Of a stretch of 20,173 nucleotides of DNA, positions 6,214 to 20,173 are shown piece by piece. The DNA is from a virus. Position 1 is the first letter of the stretch. The number at the start of each line of letters is the position of its first letter. The DNA lies in the IMG/VR virus record IMGVR_UViG_3300037189_005000, positions 1 through 20,173 of that record. One strand, given 5' to 3'. Under the pieces are notes generated by a model. The model was not told where the DNA came from and ran no database searches. It saw only the letters and a program-made list of their open reading frames with translations. The position numbers and the translations under genes are program-made.

Positions 6214-6822
6214 ATGACAACCGACCCGCGATGGAAATCCCAGCTGGGACAGGACCGCTTCGTGTGGGAGACGCTCGACCGCAAGACCGGCGGGACGTTC
6301 TTCGACATCGGTGCAGGTCATCCCGATCGGATCAGCAACACCGTGGTACTCGAGCGCGGATTCGGCTGGCGCGGCCTGTTGTCGGACATCGAGTACGACA
6401 GGCAGCTGCGCGAGCAGCGCGCCAAGAACAACATCTACCGCGCCGATGCGACGGACATCGACTACGAGGCGCAATGGCTGCGGCTTGCGTCCGACGAGTT
6501 CCGATGGGTCGACTTCCTGTCGCTGGACCTCGAGCCGCCAGACCTGACGGCGCGCGTGTTGCTTCGGATGCCGCTTGACCGCATCCGCTTCCGCATCGCC
6601 TGCGTCGAGCATGACGCGTACCGCGACGGCGAGCGAGGCATCCTGCGCCGCGACATGATGCGGAGCTTTATGGAGTGGAGCGGCTACGTCCGCGTGGCCG
6701 ACATCGTGGTGAATATGCAGACCGAAGACGAGATGATCCAGGCGCATATCGAGGACTGGTGGATCCATCGGGAAAGCGGGCTTGTCGAGAAGGCGCGCGC
6801 GGTGCTTGGAGTCAACGCATGA
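6214..6822 (+). CDS. FkbM-like SAM-dependent methyltransferase
   Basis: The 202-residue protein looks like a compact class I methyltransferase of the FkbM type. SQLGQDRFVWE at residues 9-19 matches the 'sQ.gqD.fv...l' start of the family; TFFDIGAGHPDRISNT (28-43) is the SAM-binding motif I; GWRGLLSDIE (51-60) is the acidic motif II equivalent; RADATD (76-81) and VDFLSLDLEPPD (99-110) match later motifs, and a 'vEHD' follows at 131-134. FkbM-type enzymes mostly O-methylate sugars or small molecules. An AGGAG ribosome site precedes the ATG, and the stop overlaps the next gene (ATGA). Placement between fibre genes and a DNA methyltransferase is unusual; a target on a virion or host glycan is an inference. 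Confidence 0.75.
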   Translation: MTTDPRWKSQLGQDRFVWETLDRKTGGTFFDIGAGHPDRISNTVVLERGFGWRGLLSDIEYDRQLREQRAKNNIYRADATDIDYEAQWLRLASDEFRWVDFLSLDLEPPDLTARVLLRMPLDRIRFRIACVEHDAYRDGERGILRRDMMRSFMEWSGYVRVADIVVNMQTEDEMIQAHIEDWWIHRESGLVEKARAVLGVNA

Positions 6823-7940
6823 AGACAGAACGCGTACCCATCGGCTCGGTGCAGTTCGATCCCGCGAACGTCCGCAGGCACGGCGAGAAGAACCTTGACG
6901 CGATCAAGGCGAGCCTGTCGCGCTTCGGCCAGCAGAAGCCGATCGTGGTCGACGCGGACGGCATCGTTCGCGCCGGCAACGGCACGCTCATGGCTGCGAA
7001 GGCGCTGGGATGGCCAGAGGTGACGATCGTCCGAACTGCGCTCAAGGGCGCGGAGGCGACCGCCTACGCGATCGCGGACAACCGTACCGCGGAGCTTGCA
7101 GAGTGGGACGACGACGCGCTGGCGCAGACGCTTGCGGCGCTCCAGATCGAGGACGAGGAGCTCGCGAAGGTGACGGGCTTTGACGATGCCGACATCGACG
7201 CGATGCTCGCGCCAGACGAGGTGACGGAGGACGAGGTTCCAGAGCCTCCCGTCGATCCGATTACGAAGCCTGGCGACCTTTGGCTCCTCGGGGAACATCG
7301 CCTCCTCTGCGGAGACTCGACGAAGGCTCATGATGTCGCGCGGCTGATGCACAAGCAAACGGCAGATGCAACCATTTCCGATCCGCCATACGGTCTCGGC
7401 TATGAGTATGCAACCCATGACGACTCGGACAACAACGCGAACGCGAGCCTAGTTGCATCGGCGTTCGCCCTAGGATCGAGCTTCATCGTTTGGACGCCAG
7501 GCCAGCAGAACCTCGCGAGAGACATCAATCGTTTCGGAAAGTCCAAGGTGCTCATCTGGTTCAAGAAGTTTGCAGCGATGGGAAACGGACTCGGAGGCGC
7601 GTCCGTATGGGAGCCGATACTAGTTGTCGGGAAGCCGCCGAAACGAGAGCTGAAAACCGATGTGATCGAATGCATGACGGAGCGTCTAGAGGTCGACGGG
7701 AAGCCGCTTCGCAGCCTGCATACTTGTCCGAAACCCGTCGCTTTGTACGCGGGGCTCATCGAGTCTTTCACCGAGCTAGGACAACTGATCCATGAGCCGT
7801 TCTGCGGATCAGGAACGACGCTCATCGCTGCCGAGCAACTTGGTCGTAAGTGCTACGGGATGGAGATAAGTCCCGCCTACTGCGATGTCATCGTGAAGCG
7901 ATGGGAGACTCTGACGGGAAAGAAGGCCACCCGTGGCTAG
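6819..7940 (+). CDS. ParB-like domain fused to an N6-adenine/N4-cytosine DNA methyltransferase
   Basis: The 373-residue protein starts at an ATGA overlap. Residues 1-95 form a ParB/Srx-type domain (VPIGSVQFDPANVRRH, then IVRAGNGTLMAAKALGW at 49-65 and ADNRTAE at 87-93). After an acidic linker (130-147) comes the methyltransferase: LWLLGEHRLLCGDS at 154-167, catalytic motif IV DPPY at 188-191, HTCPKPVAL at 301-309 and SAM-binding FCGSGTT at 328-334. Motif IV before motif I marks the beta class, which contains N6-A and N4-C enzymes. No restriction nuclease adjoins it, so it is probably an orphan methylase acting on phage or host DNA, for example against restriction. ParB-methylase fusions are frequent in phages near terminase. 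The two halves differ in base composition. Confidence 0.88.
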   Translation: MKTERVPIGSVQFDPANVRRHGEKNLDAIKASLSRFGQQKPIVVDADGIVRAGNGTLMAAKALGWPEVTIVRTALKGAEATAYAIADNRTAELAEWDDDALAQTLAALQIEDEELAKVTGFDDADIDAMLAPDEVTEDEVPEPPVDPITKPGDLWLLGEHRLLCGDSTKAHDVARLMHKQTADATISDPPYGLGYEYATHDDSDNNANASLVASAFALGSSFIVWTPGQQNLARDINRFGKSKVLIWFKKFAAMGNGLGGASVWEPILVVGKPPKRELKTDVIECMTERLEVDGKPLRSLHTCPKPVALYAGLIESFTELGQLIHEPFCGSGTTLIAAEQLGRKCYGMEISPAYCDVIVKRWETLTGKKATRG

Positions 7941-8271: not shown

Positions 8272-9449
8272 GGATCAGGCTTCCCGCCATCGAGAGCGTG
8301 CTGCATGAGTCGCAGCGCGAGGTATACGGGAAGCTCGCGCGCTTCTCGGTTCTCGAGATCGGCCGGCGCTGGGGAAAGACCACGTTCGGCCGCGTGATCT
8401 CCACCTATGACGCGATCCACGGCAAGAAAGTCGGATGGTTTGCCCCGTCGTACAAGTACCTTGCGGAACCCGTCCGTGAGTTTGAGCGCGCGCTAGGGCC
8501 AGTCATCGCCAGGCACGACCGCATAGAGCATCGGATGGAGCTGCGTACGCGCGGCGTGGTCGACTTCTGGACGCTCGAGGATGTCGACGCGGGCCGATCG
8601 CGCGACTATGACCTGGTCGTCATCGACGAGGCGGGAATGGTCGGGCATCTCTTGGACTGCTGGCAGCAGTCGATCCGCGCGACCTTGACCGACCGCAAGG
8701 GCCGCGCGCTGTTCCTCGGCACGCCGAAGGGCAGCGGCGATTTCCATCGGCTCTTCTCCCAGGCAGAGTCGGACGCGTCGGGAGAGTTCCGCGCGTTCCG
8801 CATCGGATCGGCTGCGAACCCGCACCTTGACCCAGCGGAGATCGAAGCCGCGCGGCGGATGCTGCCGGCGCAGGTCTTCGCGCAGGAGTACGAAGGCATA
8901 CCCGCGGAAGACGGCGGGAACCCGTTCGGACTGTCAGCCATCGCGCAATGCGTCGCGCCTATGTCGTCCGATGCGCCTGAGGTCTGGGGCGTGGACCTTG
9001 CGAAGTCGAGCGACTACACCGTCGCCGTGGCGCTCGACGGCGCAGGGCGCGTCTGCAGGCTTGAGCGATGGCAAGCGCCGTGGACGGTCACGCGCGAGAA
9101 GCTGGCGCGGATGCTCGGGCAGCTGCCGGCGCAGATCGACTCGACTGGCGTAGGCGATCCCATCGTCGAGGATCTACGCAAGGTCTGCCGCCGCGCTGAG
9201 GGCTTCAAGTTCTCGAGCGCGACCAAACAGCAGCTCATGGAAGGCCTGCAGATCGCCATCCAGACGGCTGAGGTACGATTTCCCGAAGGCTGGCTCCGCG
9301 CTGAACTGGAGGCCTTTGGCTTCCGATACTCACCACGGGGCGCGGTGCAATACGAGGCAACGGTCGGCCACGACGACGGAGTGTGCGCGCTTGCCCTCGC
9401 GCTCCATGCTCGACGGCAGCGGCGGCCCCTCATCGTGAAGGTCATATGA
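8268..9449 (+). CDS. terL: Large terminase subunit (packaging ATPase/nuclease)
   Basis: From the GTG at 8268 (GTGA overlap with the small subunit) the product is 393 residues. The ATPase half has a Walker A variant GRRWGKTT at 32-39, Walker B DLVVIDEA at 115-122 with catalytic Glu121, and the coupling motif LFLGTPKG at 148-155. The RNase H-like nuclease half has three acidic positions: GVDLA (Asp243), IDSTGVGD (Asp291) and GHDDGV (Asp369/370). This is the normal motor of dsDNA tailed phages: it translocates DNA through the portal and cuts at headful or site. The size is at the compact end of the usual range. The frame is open upstream, but that segment reads against the small terminase and has the composition of an overlap, not a domain. 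Confidence 0.95.
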   Translation: MRIRLPAIESVLHESQREVYGKLARFSVLEIGRRWGKTTFGRVISTYDAIHGKKVGWFAPSYKYLAEPVREFERALGPVIARHDRIEHRMELRTRGVVDFWTLEDVDAGRSRDYDLVVIDEAGMVGHLLDCWQQSIRATLTDRKGRALFLGTPKGSGDFHRLFSQAESDASGEFRAFRIGSAANPHLDPAEIEAARRMLPAQVFAQEYEGIPAEDGGNPFGLSAIAQCVAPMSSDAPEVWGVDLAKSSDYTVAVALDGAGRVCRLERWQAPWTVTREKLARMLGQLPAQIDSTGVGDPIVEDLRKVCRRAEGFKFSSATKQQLMEGLQIAIQTAEVRFPEGWLRAELEAFGFRYSPRGAVQYEATVGHDDGVCALALALHARRQRRPLIVKVI

Positions 9450-12400
9450 GACGACTACTCGACCGAATCAAGCGCGCGTTCAACGAGGACAAGTTCCTGC
9501 AGACCTCGATGCAGATTCTGAGCGGCGACGAAGCCAAGCGCCAGCCGTTCAGCTACCACGCCGCCGTCGCGTCGTACCGATCATGGATCTACGCAGCCGC
9601 AAACCTAAACGCGGTCGCGGTCGCATCGCAGCCGATCCGCCTCTACGTCAGGAAGGGCGGCCGCAAGAGCCTTTGGCGCACGCGCGCGCCTGGCATGAGA
9701 GCGAAGGCCTATCTAGCCGGCGACCTATCCGCGCAGCCGTCGCGTACCGTGATGACCAAGGCCGCAGAGTACGGCGACGACTACGAGGTCGTCACCGAGA
9801 TGCACCCCGTCCTCGATGTACTGAGCAAGTTCAATCAGTACCAGAACGGCTTCGACGCGACCATCCTACGCATCCTGTATACGGAGCTCACGGGCAACGC
9901 GTACATTCATCCCGTCATCGACCGCCAGCTCGGTCGCCCTTCGTCGCTTTGGATCATGCCGTCGCAATGGGTCGAGGTCGTGCCGGGAAAGGTCGAGTTC
10001 GTCGACGGCTATCTCTATGGCGCGACCCGCGATCAGCGGCGTTTTTTCCCTGCCGACGAGGTGATTCACTTCAGGCGGCCGAACCCTGGCGACCTGTACT
10101 ACGGGCTCGGCAAGGCTGAGGCCGCATGGGGCGCGGCGATGCAGAACGAGGCCGTGCATGAGATGGACCTGTCGTTCTTCTCCAACAAGGCGCGTCCCGA
10201 CTACCTGCTGACGTTCAAGGGCGTTGCCGATCCAAACGAGATCGAGCGGCTCGAGGTCCAGATTGACGAGAAGCTGCGCGGCAAGAAGCGCACGGGCCGC
10301 TTCCTGACGATGTCGTCCGATGTCGACCTCAAGCCGATGGGCTTCCCGCCGAAAGACCTGGCAGGCCGCACGGAGATCATCGAGGAGATCGCCGCGGTAT
10401 TCGGCGTGCCTGTCTCGATGCTCAAGGCCAACGACCCGAACCTCGCGTCCGCGCAGGTCGGCTTCGCGTCGTGGCGGTCGAACACGATCCTGCCGCTCCT
10501 GCGGATGGACGAGGAGACGCTGAATCAGTCTCTGCTGCCGCTCTTCGGCATCGAGGACGACGCGTTCCTTGCGTACGACAATCCCGTTCTCGAGGATGAG
10601 CGCTTTGAGTTTGAGCGCGTCCGCGCCGCGGTATCCGCTGGCATGATGACGGTCAACGAGGCGCGCGAGCTGCAGGGGCTCGCCGCTAGCGATGACCCGA
10701 ACGCGGATTCCCTGCTGTTCAACAACCAGCCGCTCGGCGGTCCCGTCCCGCCGCCGCCGGCTGTCCCGTCCTTCTCCCCTGAGCCGCCGTCCGCGCCCGC
10801 CGGCCCCGCCGGGCCGGACGGTGGCGGAGAGGCCACGACACCCGTGGACGAGCCCGTCGCGGAGGTCGGCGTGAAGTCGTTGCAGAATGCGATGCACACG
10901 CTCGGCGCGATCGAAGAGAAGGCGAGCCCCGCCGACTGCGTCTCCGAGAAGATTCCGAAGCTTCTCGACGAGGGCTACCCGCGCGACCAGGCGATCGCCA
11001 TTGCGATTTCCATGTGCGATGCGGGATCGAAGGCGGTGTCCGACATCGACACGAAGCCGCCCGAGACGGTGGCCCGCAACGCGCAGCGCGCGCTCGAGGT
11101 CCGAAGCGAGAAGCCAGACAGCCAGCGCGGCATGACCGAAGTCGGCATCGCGCGCGCGCGCGACCTGGCGAACCGTGCGAATCTGTCGGAGGAGACGATT
11201 CGTCGCATGGCCGCGTACTTTGAGCGGCACGAAGTCGACAAGCAAGGCGAGACATGGGACGAGCAGGGCAAGGGCTGGCAGGCATGGTACGGCTGGGGCG
11301 GCGACGAGGGCTGGGCATGGGCTCGCCGCAAGGTCGAGGAGTTCGACCGCGCGCGCGGCGTGAAGTCTGGCTGCGGCTGCGACCGTGCCAAGGACTTTGC
11401 CGCGGACCTCGACGCGTGCCTCTGCGACGAGGTCGAGACGAAGAACTGCGGCACGGGCGCAGAGGGATTTGAGGACGGCAACACCTGCGGCGGCGGTAGT
11501 GGCGGCGGCGGTGCATCGTCTGGAGGAGACGGAGCATCGAAGCCAGCGTCAGACAAGCCGAAGAAGCCGTCGAGCCGCAAGCCGAAGCAGCCCAAGGCAG
11601 AGGCCGGCAAGCCTCCCGCGGCGGGACTCAAGGAACCGAAGAAGCACGACGTTGCCCTGCCGGTCAATCCCCGCAAGATGAGCATCGACCAGTTTGACGC
11701 TGGTCTGCGCGCGCTCGGATACACCGAGGTCGGAAAGCGCACCGAGAACCCGTACAGCCGCACCGATCGCCGCACCTACTACACGGTGCGCGATGCGGAC
11801 GGCAACACGGCAGAAGTCGAGATGAACGAACTTCTCGGCACGATGTACGCGAACTCGAGCGATCCGAAGCTGCAGGCGGTCACGCCGAAGCCGCGGTCCA
11901 AGTCTGTGTGCGGCTGCGGCTGCGAGTCGGGCGCGTCCATCTCGCAGAAGGCGCTCTGGTCTATGGACGGCGAGCAGCTGCCCGAGATCCACACGAAGGC
12001 GCGCGCGAAGAAGCCCGATGCCGGCGACGAGTTCGAGGAGATCACGGAAGACGAGCGCGCCATCGGCAACGCAGTCGACCGCGTCCTGCAGCGCCAGATT
12101 TCGGCGGTCCTCAAGGAACTCAACGCGTCGACAGCGCCGAGCGCCGAACTGACGCTCAAGGTCGAGTCGCTGCTGAAGAGCGCGAGATGGGACCGCGAGC
12201 TGGTGGCGGCGCTTCGGCCCTACCTGCAGTCGAGCCTCAAGACGGGCATCTCGCTCGGAACGGACACCATCAAGAACTTGGCGACGGCGTTGCCAGACTT
12301 CACGCCAGAGACGGCGAACCTCGACGCGTACGTCGAGTCGGAATCGGTGCGCCTTGCCCGCAACAGCGCGCGCTCGGTCAACCAGTACACCTCCGTGCGC

Positions 12401-12898
12401 GTGTCCAAGATTCTGGGGGACGGCATCCAGAGCGGCGAGACTATCCCCGAACTCGCCACGCGCGTGCAGGAGTGGGCGGGCGAGAAGGGCGACGCAGCGC
12501 GGCAGACGCGCTCAAGGGCTATCACCATCGCCCGCACCGAGGCGCAGCGCGCTACCCGCAAGGCTGAGAGCGAGGCGTGGAAGTCGACGGGGCTGGTGGA
12601 GGGCAAGAAATGGCTCCTCGCGCCTGACCCCTGCGAGTTCTGCCAGGCCGCGTCCGAGCAGTTCGGGCAGAAGTCGGTCGGCATCAACGAGCCGTTCTAC
12701 AAGCAGGGCGACACGCTCACGGGCGCGGACGGCGGGGAGCTGGCGCTTGACTACGAGGCGGTCGACGGGCCGCCGCTGCACCCGAACTGCCGCTGTTCGA
12801 TGCAGCCGGTCCTCGTCGACGACTACGAACAGATCATCAAGGACATGGAAGCGGACGCGGCGAAGATGACGGGTCCGTACACGGAGCCAACGGAATGA
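9446..12898 (+). CDS. Portal protein fused to MuF-like head morphogenesis protein, with inserted domains
   Basis: The 1150-residue protein starts ATGA-overlapped with terL. Residues 1-430 are an HK97-type portal (SYRSWIYAAANLNAVAVA near 43-60, ELTGNAYIHPVI at 147-158, ADEVIHFRRPNP at 203-214, TEIIEEIAAVFGVPVSML at 309-326). A Pro/Gly linker (431-465) follows. Then come a small domain with DCVSEKIPKLLDEGYPRDQA (497-516); a domain with MTEVGIARARDLANR, AAYFERHEVDKQG and WYGWGGDEGW (563-623) seen in other phage head proteins but of unknown function; Cys-rich and Gly/Lys-rich linkers (640-735); an unrecognised domain (737-812); a second CGCGC knot (822-826); and a MuF-type end (866-1125) with ARTEAQR (1029-1035), CEFC (1063-1066) and DGPPLHPNCRC (1107-1117). 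The portal forms the packaging dodecamer; MuF proteins are carried in the head. Portal and MuF are usually separate neighbouring genes. Confidence 0.9.
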   Translation: MRRLLDRIKRAFNEDKFLQTSMQILSGDEAKRQPFSYHAAVASYRSWIYAAANLNAVAVASQPIRLYVRKGGRKSLWRTRAPGMRAKAYLAGDLSAQPSRTVMTKAAEYGDDYEVVTEMHPVLDVLSKFNQYQNGFDATILRILYTELTGNAYIHPVIDRQLGRPSSLWIMPSQWVEVVPGKVEFVDGYLYGATRDQRRFFPADEVIHFRRPNPGDLYYGLGKAEAAWGAAMQNEAVHEMDLSFFSNKARPDYLLTFKGVADPNEIERLEVQIDEKLRGKKRTGRFLTMSSDVDLKPMGFPPKDLAGRTEIIEEIAAVFGVPVSMLKANDPNLASAQVGFASWRSNTILPLLRMDEETLNQSLLPLFGIEDDAFLAYDNPVLEDERFEFERVRAAVSAGMMTVNEARELQGLAASDDPNADSLLFNNQPLGGPVPPPPAVPSFSPEPPSAPAGPAGPDGGGEATTPVDEPVAEVGVKSLQNAMHTLGAIEEKASPADCVSEKIPKLLDEGYPRDQAIAIAISMCDAGSKAVSDIDTKPPETVARNAQRALEVRSEKPDSQRGMTEVGIARARDLANRANLSEETIRRMAAYFERHEVDKQGETWDEQGKGWQAWYGWGGDEGWAWARRKVEEFDRARGVKSGCGCDRAKDFAADLDACLCDEVETKNCGTGAEGFEDGNTCGGGSGGGGASSGGDGASKPASDKPKKPSSRKPKQPKAEAGKPPAAGLKEPKKHDVALPVNPRKMSIDQFDAGLRALGYTEVGKRTENPYSRTDRRTYYTVRDADGNTAEVEMNELLGTMYANSSDPKLQAVTPKPRSKSVCGCGCESGASISQKALWSMDGEQLPEIHTKARAKKPDAGDEFEEITEDERAIGNAVDRVLQRQISAVLKELNASTAPSAELTLKVESLLKSARWDRELVAALRPYLQSSLKTGISLGTDTIKNLATALPDFTPETANLDAYVESESVRLARNSARSVNQYTSVRVSKILGDGIQSGETIPELATRVQEWAGEKGDAARQTRSRAITIARTEAQRATRKAESEAWKSTGLVEGKKWLLAPDPCEFCQAASEQFGQKSVGINEPFYKQGDTLTGADGGELALDYEAVDGPPLHPNCRCSMQPVLVDDYEQIIKDMEADAAKMTGPYTEPTE

Positions 12899-15467: not shown

Positions 15468-15502
15468 GGAACGGGGCCGCACCTTGTGTGCGGTCCTGTT
15501 CT
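15468..15502 (+). terminator. Strong hairpin, possible intrinsic terminator or transcript-end element
   Basis: The arms 15468-15482 and 15488-15502 pair as a 15-bp stem (including three G-U pairs) around a 5-nt loop CTTGT. The core is GGGCCGCAC/GTGCGGTCC. The bases after the core are T-rich (TGTTCTCTTT, 15497-15506), but part of that tract is in the extended stem, so termination is likely partial. It separates the capsid cluster from the glycosyltransferase gene, where a step down in expression would make sense. Confidence 0.65.
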
Positions 15503-15521
15503 CTTTGGCTACCATCCGCGC

Positions 15522-15526
15522 AGGAG
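15522..15526 (+). promoter_or_regulatory. Shine-Dalgarno deciding the glycosyltransferase start
   Basis: AGGAG lies 6 nt upstream of the ATG at 15533. The longer alternative from GTG at 15488 would start inside the hairpin arm and has no ribosome site, so it is not used here. Confidence 0.75.
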
Positions 15527-15532
15527 ACAGCC

Positions 15533-16588
15533 ATGAACTACGAGAGTGGATTGCCAGAGCGCCGCGACCTCGGCATGACGGTGGCCGAGATGACTACCGA
15601 GGAGGCCGTCGAGTTGCTCCGCAAGCTTGCATCGGAGACGGACGACGGCGGCGAAGTTGTCATTACCGTGCCGGACTTCGACCGCGCCGTCGAACTCTAC
15701 AGAGCGGGATCGCCTGGCGCGGAGAAAGCCTGCGTCGACGGCGGCCGCTTCAAGTCGATCTGGAACCGTGCGAAGCTGCTGCGTCTGCTTGACGCGGCTG
15801 GCTTCTGCGCCGCCGGTCCCGCGTCGGGAACGTCTTGGGAGAAGGACGGCACGATCTCGATCGTCGCGCGCAAATACTGGCGTATGCAGCCGCCGAAGCC
15901 GCTCGACCAAATCCTCGCCATCATGTCGCTGCCGCGCGTTGCGTGGACGACGACGATGGGCTGCCTGCACGAATCCTGCAGCAAGCTGGGCATCGACGCG
16001 GTTCGGTCCACGGGCGTGTTCTGGGGCCAATGCCTCGAGCGGATGCTTGAGCAGACCGCGCGCGACGGCCACAAGTACGCGCTGACCGTCGACTACGACA
16101 GCATCTTCGACGCGAACGACATCGTGCGTCTCTGGCAGATCATGGAGTCGAATCCCGACATCGACGTACTCTGCCCGTTGCAGATCCAGCGCGACAAGCC
16201 GAATAGCCTCTTCTGCATCATGGGCGCGGACGGCAAGTTGCTCGACGCGTTGTCGGAAGAGCGGCTGCTTTGCGAGGCCATCGACATCTATAGCGGTCAT
16301 TTCGGGCTGACGCTGATCCGATGCAGCGCGCTCGAGGGAATCAAGCGGCCGCTCTTCTGGGGTCAGCCCGACGCGGACGGCAGCTGGGGCAAGGGCCGCA
16401 CGGACGACGACATCTTCTTCTGGAACCGTCTGCGCGAGGCTGGTCGGCGCGTCTGCCTTACGCCGCGCGTCAGGATCGGACACCTCCAGCTCGTCGTCTC
16501 ATGGCCTGACGAGTCGTTCGAGGCAATGCATCAGTACCACCCCGCGTACATCGACGAGGGGAGGCCGAAATGCACGACGACCTTCTGA
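15533..16588 (+). CDS. Glycosyltransferase-like protein with a methyltransferase-like N-terminal remnant
   Basis: The 351-residue protein has two parts. Residues 1-115 (EAVELLRKLASETDDGGEVV, then ITVPDFDRAVELY, RFKSIWNRAKLLRLLDAAGF) resemble the C-terminal half of a class I methyltransferase ('l...GG.v.i.vPdf', then 'h.s.wd...L..lL..aGF') but lack a glycine-rich SAM motif. Residues 120-351 resemble a GT-A glycosyltransferase: ALTVDYDSIFDANDIVRLW at 183-201 with a DxD-type DYDS, DIDVLCPLQIQRDKPN at 209-224, GHFGLTLIRCSALEGIKRP at 255-273, and RTDDDIFFWNRLREAGRRV at 289-307 followed by RIGH at 314-317. It is preceded by AGGAG and overlaps the next gene by 19 nt. The likely activity is sugar transfer, target unknown; a virion protein is possible given the location among head genes. 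Confidence 0.75.
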   Translation: MNYESGLPERRDLGMTVAEMTTEEAVELLRKLASETDDGGEVVITVPDFDRAVELYRAGSPGAEKACVDGGRFKSIWNRAKLLRLLDAAGFCAAGPASGTSWEKDGTISIVARKYWRMQPPKPLDQILAIMSLPRVAWTTTMGCLHESCSKLGIDAVRSTGVFWGQCLERMLEQTARDGHKYALTVDYDSIFDANDIVRLWQIMESNPDIDVLCPLQIQRDKPNSLFCIMGADGKLLDALSEERLLCEAIDIYSGHFGLTLIRCSALEGIKRPLFWGQPDADGSWGKGRTDDDIFFWNRLREAGRRVCLTPRVRIGHLQLVVSWPDESFEAMHQYHPAYIDEGRPKCTTTF

Positions 16589-18903: not shown

Positions 18904-19362
18904 ATGGCAGTCACCCACTACCTCATCGGAAACGACGGCGACGCGACCTTCAAGGCCGGCACGACCACGCAGACCATCTTCCGCGTGCGGTCCTACGCGG
19001 CGACTCTCACTCGCAACTCGGTCGACCTGACGGCGTTCGGAGACACGGGCCGCCGCAAGCGCCTCGGTATGCTCGATGTCACGGGCTCGCTCAACGCGGT
19101 CCTCGGACTCGACAACACCGCCACGCCCGTCACGACCAACTTCTTCCAGAGCGAGCAGCGGACCTACAACACCAGCGAGGTCGTGGAGCTGACGTTGAAG
19201 CTCGGTGGCTCGACCGCGTCGACGACCAACGAGGCCAAGATTGTGTCGAAGGTCGTCATGAACAACTTCGCATTCAACAGCGACAAGGCCGGCGAGGCCA
19301 CGCTGTCCTGCAACTTCGAGAACGCGGACGGCAACGCGCCCGTGGTGACCTGGCTGATCTGA
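18904..19362 (+). CDS. Major tail (tube) protein
   Basis: The 152-residue protein starts after a purine-rich AAAGGAAAG site. It has HYLIGNDGDATFKAG, TIFRVRSYAATLTRNSVDLT, AFGDTGRRKRLGMLDVTGSL and VVELTLKLGG, followed by AKIVSKVVMNNFAFNSDKAG and LSCNFENADGN at the end. The 'v.sw.......d.T.fgd...r...gl.d.tGs..g..d' pattern is the core of siphovirus tube proteins, which stack as hexameric rings. It is the expected product in this position, between the terminator and the tail assembly chaperones. It has no extra Ig domain. Confidence 0.85.
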   Translation: MAVTHYLIGNDGDATFKAGTTTQTIFRVRSYAATLTRNSVDLTAFGDTGRRKRLGMLDVTGSLNAVLGLDNTATPVTTNFFQSEQRTYNTSEVVELTLKLGGSTASTTNEAKIVSKVVMNNFAFNSDKAGEATLSCNFENADGNAPVVTWLI

Positions 19363-19363
19363 G

Positions 19364-19621
19364 ATGCTCGACGTATTCGCGCCGAATGGAGACGACTGGG
19401 TGTCGACGCTGGTCCTACGGGACGGGCGTGTGATGCGCCGTCGTTTTTCGCCCGGGTCGATGCCAGAGGAAGACGTTCTGCGTATCTCGATCCACCTGTC
19501 GGGAGTCGCCGCGAAAGACGTTCTGGACGCTACGATCCGCAGGGCTTCGGACGCTACCGTCGAGGTTCCTGCGGACGACCATTTCGACAGACTCATGCGG
19601 AGGATACGCGAATGCAGCTAG
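19364..19621 (+). CDS. Small unknown protein in the tail module
   Basis: The 85-residue protein has a beta-rich first half (STLVLRDGRVMRRRFSPG) and a helical, charged second half (LDATIRRASDATVEVPADDHF). It starts one base after the tube-protein stop and overlaps the chaperone gene by 10 nt. I do not recognise a family. The coding pattern is regular and without it the 250-nt space would be empty, so it is probably real; a tail-assembly accessory role is inferred from position. Confidence 0.6.
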   Translation: MLDVFAPNGDDWVSTLVLRDGRVMRRRFSPGSMPEEDVLRISIHLSGVAAKDVLDATIRRASDATVEVPADDHFDRLMRRIRECS

Positions 19622-20001
19622 CCGCCCCGTTCCCTGTCACGCTCGACGAGCGGCAGGTGATGCTCAAGCCCTTGACCGTCCGTCAGCGGCTCCAGTTCTC
19701 AAACATCCTCGTAGAGCGGGCGCGCGCGCGTGCCGTCGAGGCTGGCAAGGCCGCGGGTCTGACCGGCAAGGAACTTGCCGAGATGATCGCGGATGCCGCA
19801 CTCGAGGCCGAGCGCGTTTCGGCGGTGGTGGTCGCGGCGTTCACGTTTGAGGGCGCGATGCTTGTCCTCGGCATGGCATCGAGCAAGGAAGACGCGGAGG
19901 CGATCGGCGGCGCGCTTGAGCCTGGAGAGGTCGGCGTGCTTGCGGCGCGATGCCTCGGTGTCGATGTCGCGGCGCGCGCTGGGAACAACGCGGGAAACTG
20001 A
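19612..20001 (+). CDS. Tail assembly chaperone, gpG-like
   Basis: The 129-residue protein starts from ATG with GGAGG at 19599-19603. It is mostly helical and Ala-rich: LDERQVMLKPLTVRQRLQFS, then ARAVEAGKAAGLTGKELAEM, and a C-terminal AARCLGVDVAARAGNNAGN. Small helical acidic/Ala-rich proteins after the tube protein are the lambda gpG counterparts, which with a frameshifted GT form bind the tape-measure protein during tail assembly. The strongest evidence is at its end: the last sense codons before TGA are GGA AAC, part of GGGAAAC, and the -1 frame continues open to the window end. Confidence 0.8.
   Translation: MQLAAPFPVTLDERQVMLKPLTVRQRLQFSNILVERARARAVEAGKAAGLTGKELAEMIADAALEAERVSAVVVAAFTFEGAMLVLGMASSKEDAEAIGGALEPGEVGVLAARCLGVDVAARAGNNAGN
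19992..19998 (+). promoter_or_regulatory. Programmed -1 ribosomal frameshift slippery site GGGAAAC
   Basis: The heptamer is in the required register G GGA AAC relative to the chaperone frame and is directly followed by TGA. Slipping back one base gives GGG AAA CTG AGC and so on. It has the X XXY YYZ form, differing only in the last base from lambda's GGGAAAG between genes G and T. Confidence 0.85.
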
Positions 20002-20173
20002 GCGCGCCGGCCGCGCGCGCATGGACGCGTGACTGGCTGGCCGAGGCGCATGTCATTGCGCGATCCGCGCCAGGGCTCGGGAACCCGCTCGACATGACGG
20101 TCGCGGAGTTCGACCGCCACCTCGCACTAGCGGCGAACGGTGGCTCGGTCGATGAGAGGCCGTGGCATAGACG
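19998..20173 (+). CDS. gpT-like extension made by -1 frameshift (partial at 3' end)
   Basis: After the slip at 19992-19998 the reading frame continues with LSAPAARAWTRDWLAEAHVI, then ARSAPGLGNPLDMTVAEF and DRHLALAANGG, open to the last base, about 58 codons. This is the T part of a G-T fusion; in lambda-like phages the extended form is a minor product that joins the tape measure to the tube protein. An in-frame ATG at 19950 could in principle start a separate protein, but no ribosome site precedes it and the slippery site makes the fusion more likely. The tape-measure gene should follow just beyond the window. Confidence 0.75.
   Translation, partial: MSAPAARAWTRDWLAEAHVIARSAPGLGNPLDMTVAEFDRHLALAANGGSVDERPWHR
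20002..20018 (+). promoter_or_regulatory. Hairpin just downstream of the frameshift site
   Basis: GCGCGC at 20002-20007 and 20013-20018 can form a 6-bp all-GC stem with the loop CGGCC. It begins 3 nt after the slippery heptamer, slightly closer than the usual 5-9 nt, and could pause the ribosome to promote slippage. Confidence 0.5.

Follow-up and report, generated by a model that had tools for sequence, protein, structure and literature searches.

The end of virus record IMGVR_UViG_3300037189_005000 carries a predicted programmed −1 ribosomal frameshift signal, through which two tail assembly chaperones, G and GT, would be made from one start codon. The window analysed here was the entire record of 20,173 bases. 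The frameshift reading was given a probability of about 0.95 and is supported by the register of the slippery heptamer, its conservation, selection in frame −1, loci lacking a start codon for T, coevolution of the stem-loop and gene position. Frameshifting of the G/GT type had been proposed in an earlier note on this DNA, and this evidence fits that proposal. The mechanism is already known, since GGGAAAC sites have been predicted for phages KL1 and Colossus. Judged by sequence comparison, the novelty lies in the protein family, with no Pfam match, a marginal PHROG match and no match among cultured phages, and in the comparative support across uncultured phages.

Slippery heptamer and reading frames

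The earlier note had placed the heptamer GGGAAAC in exact X XXY YYZ register immediately before TGA and had described the −1 frame as open and a start at position 19950 as false; all three descriptions held. Read in frame 0, the sequence is ...AAC AAC GCG GGA AAC TGA, with the heptamer G_GGA_AAC at 19992–19998 and TGA at 19999–20001 directly 3′ of it. This stop ends an ORF of 129 amino acids (19612–20001, + strand), gene G, which is the putative short tail assembly chaperone. From 19998, the −1 frame reads CTG AGC GCG CCG and contains no stop as far as the window end. This T extension (19998–20173, + strand), supported by the ORF list, by relatives and by −1-frame third-position substitutions, has 58 of its 67 codons complete within the record, and its product would be GT. 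A mechanical ORF at 19950–20171 on the + strand begins with an ATG inside G and has the T domain as its 3′ part. This ATG was confined to the group of close relatives and was absent from locus L012 and most other loci. Dedicated frameshift tools such as PRFect exist, but both parts must be called as genes (PMC10885494).

The likely genes of the window hold 6638 codons. In-register heptamers of the form XXXYYYZ (X not equal to Y) occurred seven times in these codons and GGGAAAN three times, the copy at 19992–19998 being the only one located within 130 codons of a stop. The heptamer at this position exceeds chance expectation.

The window being the complete record, relatives were used for the sequence past its end. 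G was found at 98–100% amino-acid identity in six virus contigs (L002–L007), all with an identical heptamer. Their −1 frame comprised 67 codons, LSAPAARAWTRDWLAEAHVIARSAPGLGNPLDMTVAEFDRHLALAANGGSVDERPWHRRYVEEAARR, followed by a stop 27 nt past the window edge. There the stop overlaps the ATG of the next gene (379 aa) as ATGA and is therefore regarded as the natural gene end and not as premature. The downstream extension proposed earlier as a check was thus obtained through relatives, and the −1 frame reaches the next gene with no early stop.

Conservation across distant relatives

The upstream putative tail protein (18904–19362) was used as a query for distant relatives. It retrieved contigs at 84%, 82%, 65%, 49% and 48% identity, all with the same arrangement. 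Heptamer and stop were GGGAAAC TGA in L012 and L013, GGGAAAG TGA in L014, GGGAAAC GCC TGA in L015 and GGGAAAC GCC TAG in L016, and T was conserved in frame −1 in these five loci. Alignment-based searches yielded many further loci on viral contigs and one in a Rhodobacteraceae MAG. With a profile search, G and T were found together in 154 loci, corresponding to 83 non-redundant loci, among which the identity of the G proteins went down to 25%.

T was in frame −1 relative to G in 83/83 non-redundant loci, and an in-register GGGAAA followed by C, A, G or T was located near the G stop in 80 of them. GGGAAAC was the most frequent heptamer (55 loci), followed by GGGAAAA (19), GGGAAAG (3), GGGAAAT (3) and AAACCCT (2), with none in one locus. 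Heptamer and stop were separated by no codon in 41 loci, by one codon in 35 and by 18 codons in three, while separations of three, four and five codons were found once each. TGA, TAG and TAA were all present as G stops across the family. The three loci without GGGAAA were L064, L072 and L141. Two of these had A_AAC_CCT one codon before TAG; in L141 no recognisable heptamer was found, yet T was in frame −1. Missing conservation of the slippery site in close relatives had been named beforehand as a result that would speak against frameshifting, and the site is kept in close and distant relatives alike.

Selection at the heptamer and start codons for T

Representatives with more than 20% divergence were drawn from the loci having GGGAAA. 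In these 34 sequences GGGAAA was invariant and the flanking columns were variable. The Z base of the heptamer varied freely, exchanging Asn and Lys. The codon before GGA was TCG, GCG, CCG, CAG, GAG or CGG, so that its final G was constant across six amino acids (S, A, P, Q, E and R). Selection at the heptamer acts on nucleotides.

Substitutions were counted in 28 independent close pairs. Upstream of the heptamer, 147 of 184 substitutions were at frame-0 third positions; downstream, 146 of 201 were at third positions of frame −1. The heptamers themselves held one substitution. In the window's own group, the corresponding values were 30/33 upstream and 8/8 downstream. As the third-position substitutions switch frame at the heptamer, coding selection changes frame there. 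The downstream −1 frame is thus under coding selection, a defining feature of a −1 frameshift site. In 16 of the 83 loci, the T frame had no ATG, GTG or TTG from the upstream stop down to the conserved motif, and some members of the family appear to have no route to T other than frameshifting.

Stem-loop downstream of the heptamer

A stimulatory stem-loop was predicted by folding at 20002–20049 (+ strand), where 20002–20005 pairs with 20046–20049 and 20006–20019 pairs with 20026–20041. Its first pair is 4 nt downstream of the heptamer. The 54-nt stretch following the heptamer folded at −30.0 kcal/mol, a value reached by 0.3% of the 54-nt windows of the record. Compared with synonymous recodings, the hairpin had a z of −1.9, with 15 of 500 recodings as strong; when this very GC-rich stretch was shuffled by dinucleotides, the hairpin did not stand out (z = −0.15). 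The GC hairpin described before therefore stands as a strong fold that moderately exceeds recodings, but not as one above dinucleotide shuffles. The window alone does not prove it; the proof comes from the family-wide tests.

Across the family, the 54 nt after the heptamer folded more strongly than synonymous T-frame recodings, with a mean z of −2.1 over 56 distinct sequences. The recoding z was below −1 in 49 and below −2 in 31 of these; the Wilcoxon p of 8e-11 is optimistic because the sequences are related and not independent. Where the structure was clearest, the main stem began with a pair 6–7 nt after the heptamer. Two mixed-clade alignments gave no single shared structure with RNAalifold because different clades pair different segments, the partner segment being the codons of RDW in some clades and of AEAH in others. 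Within one clade, RNAalifold returned a GCGCCT/AGGCGC stem in which two pairs showed compensatory changes. Synonymous recoding and an arm-swap test were used in place of RNAalifold. When 5′ and 3′ arms were exchanged between 28 divergent representatives, a mean of −24.5 kcal/mol for the own arms stood against −20.2 kcal/mol for permuted arms (z −7.3), and 0 of 20000 permutations were as strong. The two arms coevolve. The 3′ stem-loop has the properties of a stimulatory element, and stimulation of frameshifting is predicted.

Gene order and protein function

The module around G includes genes for terminase, a portal with MuF domain, protease, capsid and connectors. A single ORF of 1149 amino acids at 9449–12898 encodes the portal and a MuF-type head morphogenesis domain as one fusion; a Gly/Ser-rich linker and Cys-rich segments separate the two. 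A 366-aa ORF at 15488–16588, between the capsid and connector genes, looked glycosyltransferase-like by eye and had no Pfam match. Just upstream of the terminase module, an N4/N6 DNA methylase gene (PF01555) was present at 6816–7940.

The gene at 18904–19362 (+ strand, 152 aa) is a putative major tail (tube) protein, its function being assigned by gene order only. Between it and G, a conserved small ORF of 85 amino acids (19364–19621, + strand) overlaps the G start; it was found in the ORF list and in relatives, and its length was 85–90 amino acids in the relatives examined. Neither product had a PHROG or Pfam match. The order of tail-tube-like gene, G/T and tape-measure-like gene is conserved in relatives, the identities of the flanking genes themselves being given by position. 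Where complete, the gene after T encodes roughly 320–470 amino acids (379 aa in close relatives; L005:2721–3860) and is probably the tape measure, a name that rests mainly on gene order. The shortness of this putative tape-measure gene suggests short tails.

No Pfam match was obtained for G, T and both neighbours, and no PHROG match for the putative tape-measure gene. The PHROG matches returned for G were only weak, with phrog_344 'tail assembly chaperone' matched by 2/48 members at a best E of 1.2e-3. GT, the tail protein and G and T of other members had no tblastn match in 50,697 phage records. For G, which is conserved in about 80 non-redundant loci, AlphaFold2 predicted a beta-hairpin and helices with a pLDDT of 89.9; for T, it predicted three short helices with a pLDDT of 79. 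The structural comparison listed 2OB9, the HK97 chaperone, with a Z of 3.0 amid unrelated entries. A fold search of the PDB gave nothing at E 0.001, and PDB and BFVD together gave no firm chaperone match. The names tail chaperone and tape measure, as given in the earlier note, fit the gene order, but the matches in sequence and fold are weak. The tail-chaperone assignment rests on gene order and on the frameshift arrangement. This arrangement is characteristic of long-tailed phages (PMC5009743).

Alternative explanations

T might be a separate gene, read from its own start or by reinitiation at a stop-start overlap of the form NTGA, with the heptamer being incidental. The 19 loci with GGGAAAA and the three with GGGAAAG agree with this where the heptamer lies directly before TGA, since the T frame then has a start overlapping the stop as ATGA or GTGA, and in the window the ATG at 19950 opens that frame. 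This ATG is absent from L012 and from most of the other loci, the window's lineage has CTGA at this place, and the 16 of 83 loci with none of ATG, GTG and TTG ahead of the conserved motif offer no such start. Reinitiation would also leave the invariant GGGAAA, the preceding wobble G and the stem-loop unexplained. Independent initiation of T as the general mechanism was rejected on the basis of the start-less loci, the invariant GGGAAA and the stem-loop, and is considered very improbable; some reinitiation may occur in the GGGAAAA TGA and GGGAAAG TGA lineages.

Two further explanations concern the transcript and the assembly. Transcriptional slippage at the GGGAAA run would put some mRNAs in the −1 frame and would likewise yield a fusion protein, but no result of the analysis favoured it. 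For slippage by a polymerase, runs of three bases each (G, then A) are short, and such slippage needs neither the codon register nor the downstream stem-loop, both of which are conserved. Its probability is judged slighter still. An assembly error or pseudogene, in which G and T form one ORF broken by an artefact, would be the least credible explanation, with a negligible probability. The contigs are metagenomic and a one-base error would give such a break; however, about 80 non-redundant loci, obtained from many samples and with TGA, TAG and TAA as stops, are broken at this same heptamer, and no locus had G and T in one frame. This recurrence across loci refuted the assembly artefact.

Proposed mechanism and coupling to the next gene

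According to the frameshift reading, most ribosomes would terminate at TGA 19999–20001, which releases the 129-aa G. A smaller share would pause at the stem-loop a few nucleotides downstream, and P-site tRNA-Gly and A-site tRNA-Asn would slip from GGA/AAC to GGG/AAA. Translation would then resume at CTG (19998) and add 67 codons, so that the product GT would have 196 aa. As the A-site codon is AAC, tRNA-Asn would slip to AAA, and the main junction is therefore expected to be ...ARAGNNAGN-LSAPAAR. The junction AGK-L proposed in the earlier note has to be corrected accordingly, as it would arise only if the slip precedes decoding in the A site. By analogy with lambda, G would form a coat on the tape-measure protein, the T part would recruit the tail-tube subunit, and G would have to exceed GT in amount. 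We infer the slippage itself, the chaperone function and its partners. The efficiency of slippage is probably low. In E. coli, frameshift efficiency is low for G_GGA_AAC and high for G_GGA_AAG (PMC4066793), and the host of this phage may differ. In lambda, little GT fusion is made, at a ratio of 30:1 (PMC5009743). The low efficiency of G_GGA_AAC agrees with this small amount of GT.

The T stop overlapped the start of the next gene (ATG, TTG or GTG) by 4 nt in 74 of 81 loci (for example L005:2697–2725), and therefore only −1-shifted ribosomes terminate on that start. Frameshifting might in this way also set the supply of the tape-measure-like protein, a tentative and rather doubtful proposal. 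If the next gene mainly reinitiates, a single slip would link how much G, GT and tape measure is made. The start of the next gene was often preceded by a Shine-Dalgarno-like GAGG, and ordinary initiation is equally possible. Coupling is put forward as a hypothesis because four-base overlaps are common in phages.

Comparison with known systems

For a large group of uncultured phages without family-library matches in these genes, the family gives sound grounds to name the tail chaperone pair and, from their position, the genes for tail tube and tape measure. GGGAAA together with the motif RDWLAEAHLIARxAPGLGNPLDL in frame −1 can serve as a marker. Relying mainly on the weak G_GGA_AAC with strong, clade-specific stem-loops, the family should also help in studies on the tuning of efficiency.

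The heptamer of lambda is GGGAAAG. In contrast, the heptamer here mostly ends in C, no sequence similarity to lambda gpG/gpGT was detectable, T comprises about 51–72 codons and a strong GC stem-loop is present. A short ORF before the tape-measure gene, a −1 slip near its 3′ end and a small amount of fusion are features in common with lambda (PMC5009743). The earlier description as lambda-like consequently applies to the mechanism only; G_GGA_AAC is weak in E. coli (PMC4066793). The HK97 tail assembly chaperone (PDB 2OB9) is also a small chaperone, and its structural Z of 3.0 was tied with unrelated chains.

Colossus, a phiCbK-like siphophage of Caulobacter, has a GGGAAAC slippery site in its tape-measure chaperone pair (PMC3556154) and differs in having no sequence match in the phage collection. 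Burkholderia phage KL1 likewise gave no match when the window and family proteins were compared with this collection by tblastn. In KL1 gp18/gp19, GGGAAAC lies immediately before the TGA of a 142-aa ORF and a −1 fusion has been predicted (PMC3483164). This is the same GGGAAAC-TGA arrangement as in the window, with a fusion of 264 aa in KL1 compared to 196 here and an extra gene separating the pair from the tape measure in KL1. The haloarchaeal virus HCTV-1 differs by its archaeal host, sequence comparison having covered the phage collection only, and uses the same heptamer, G_GGA_AAC, in g-t frameshifting (PMC5009743).
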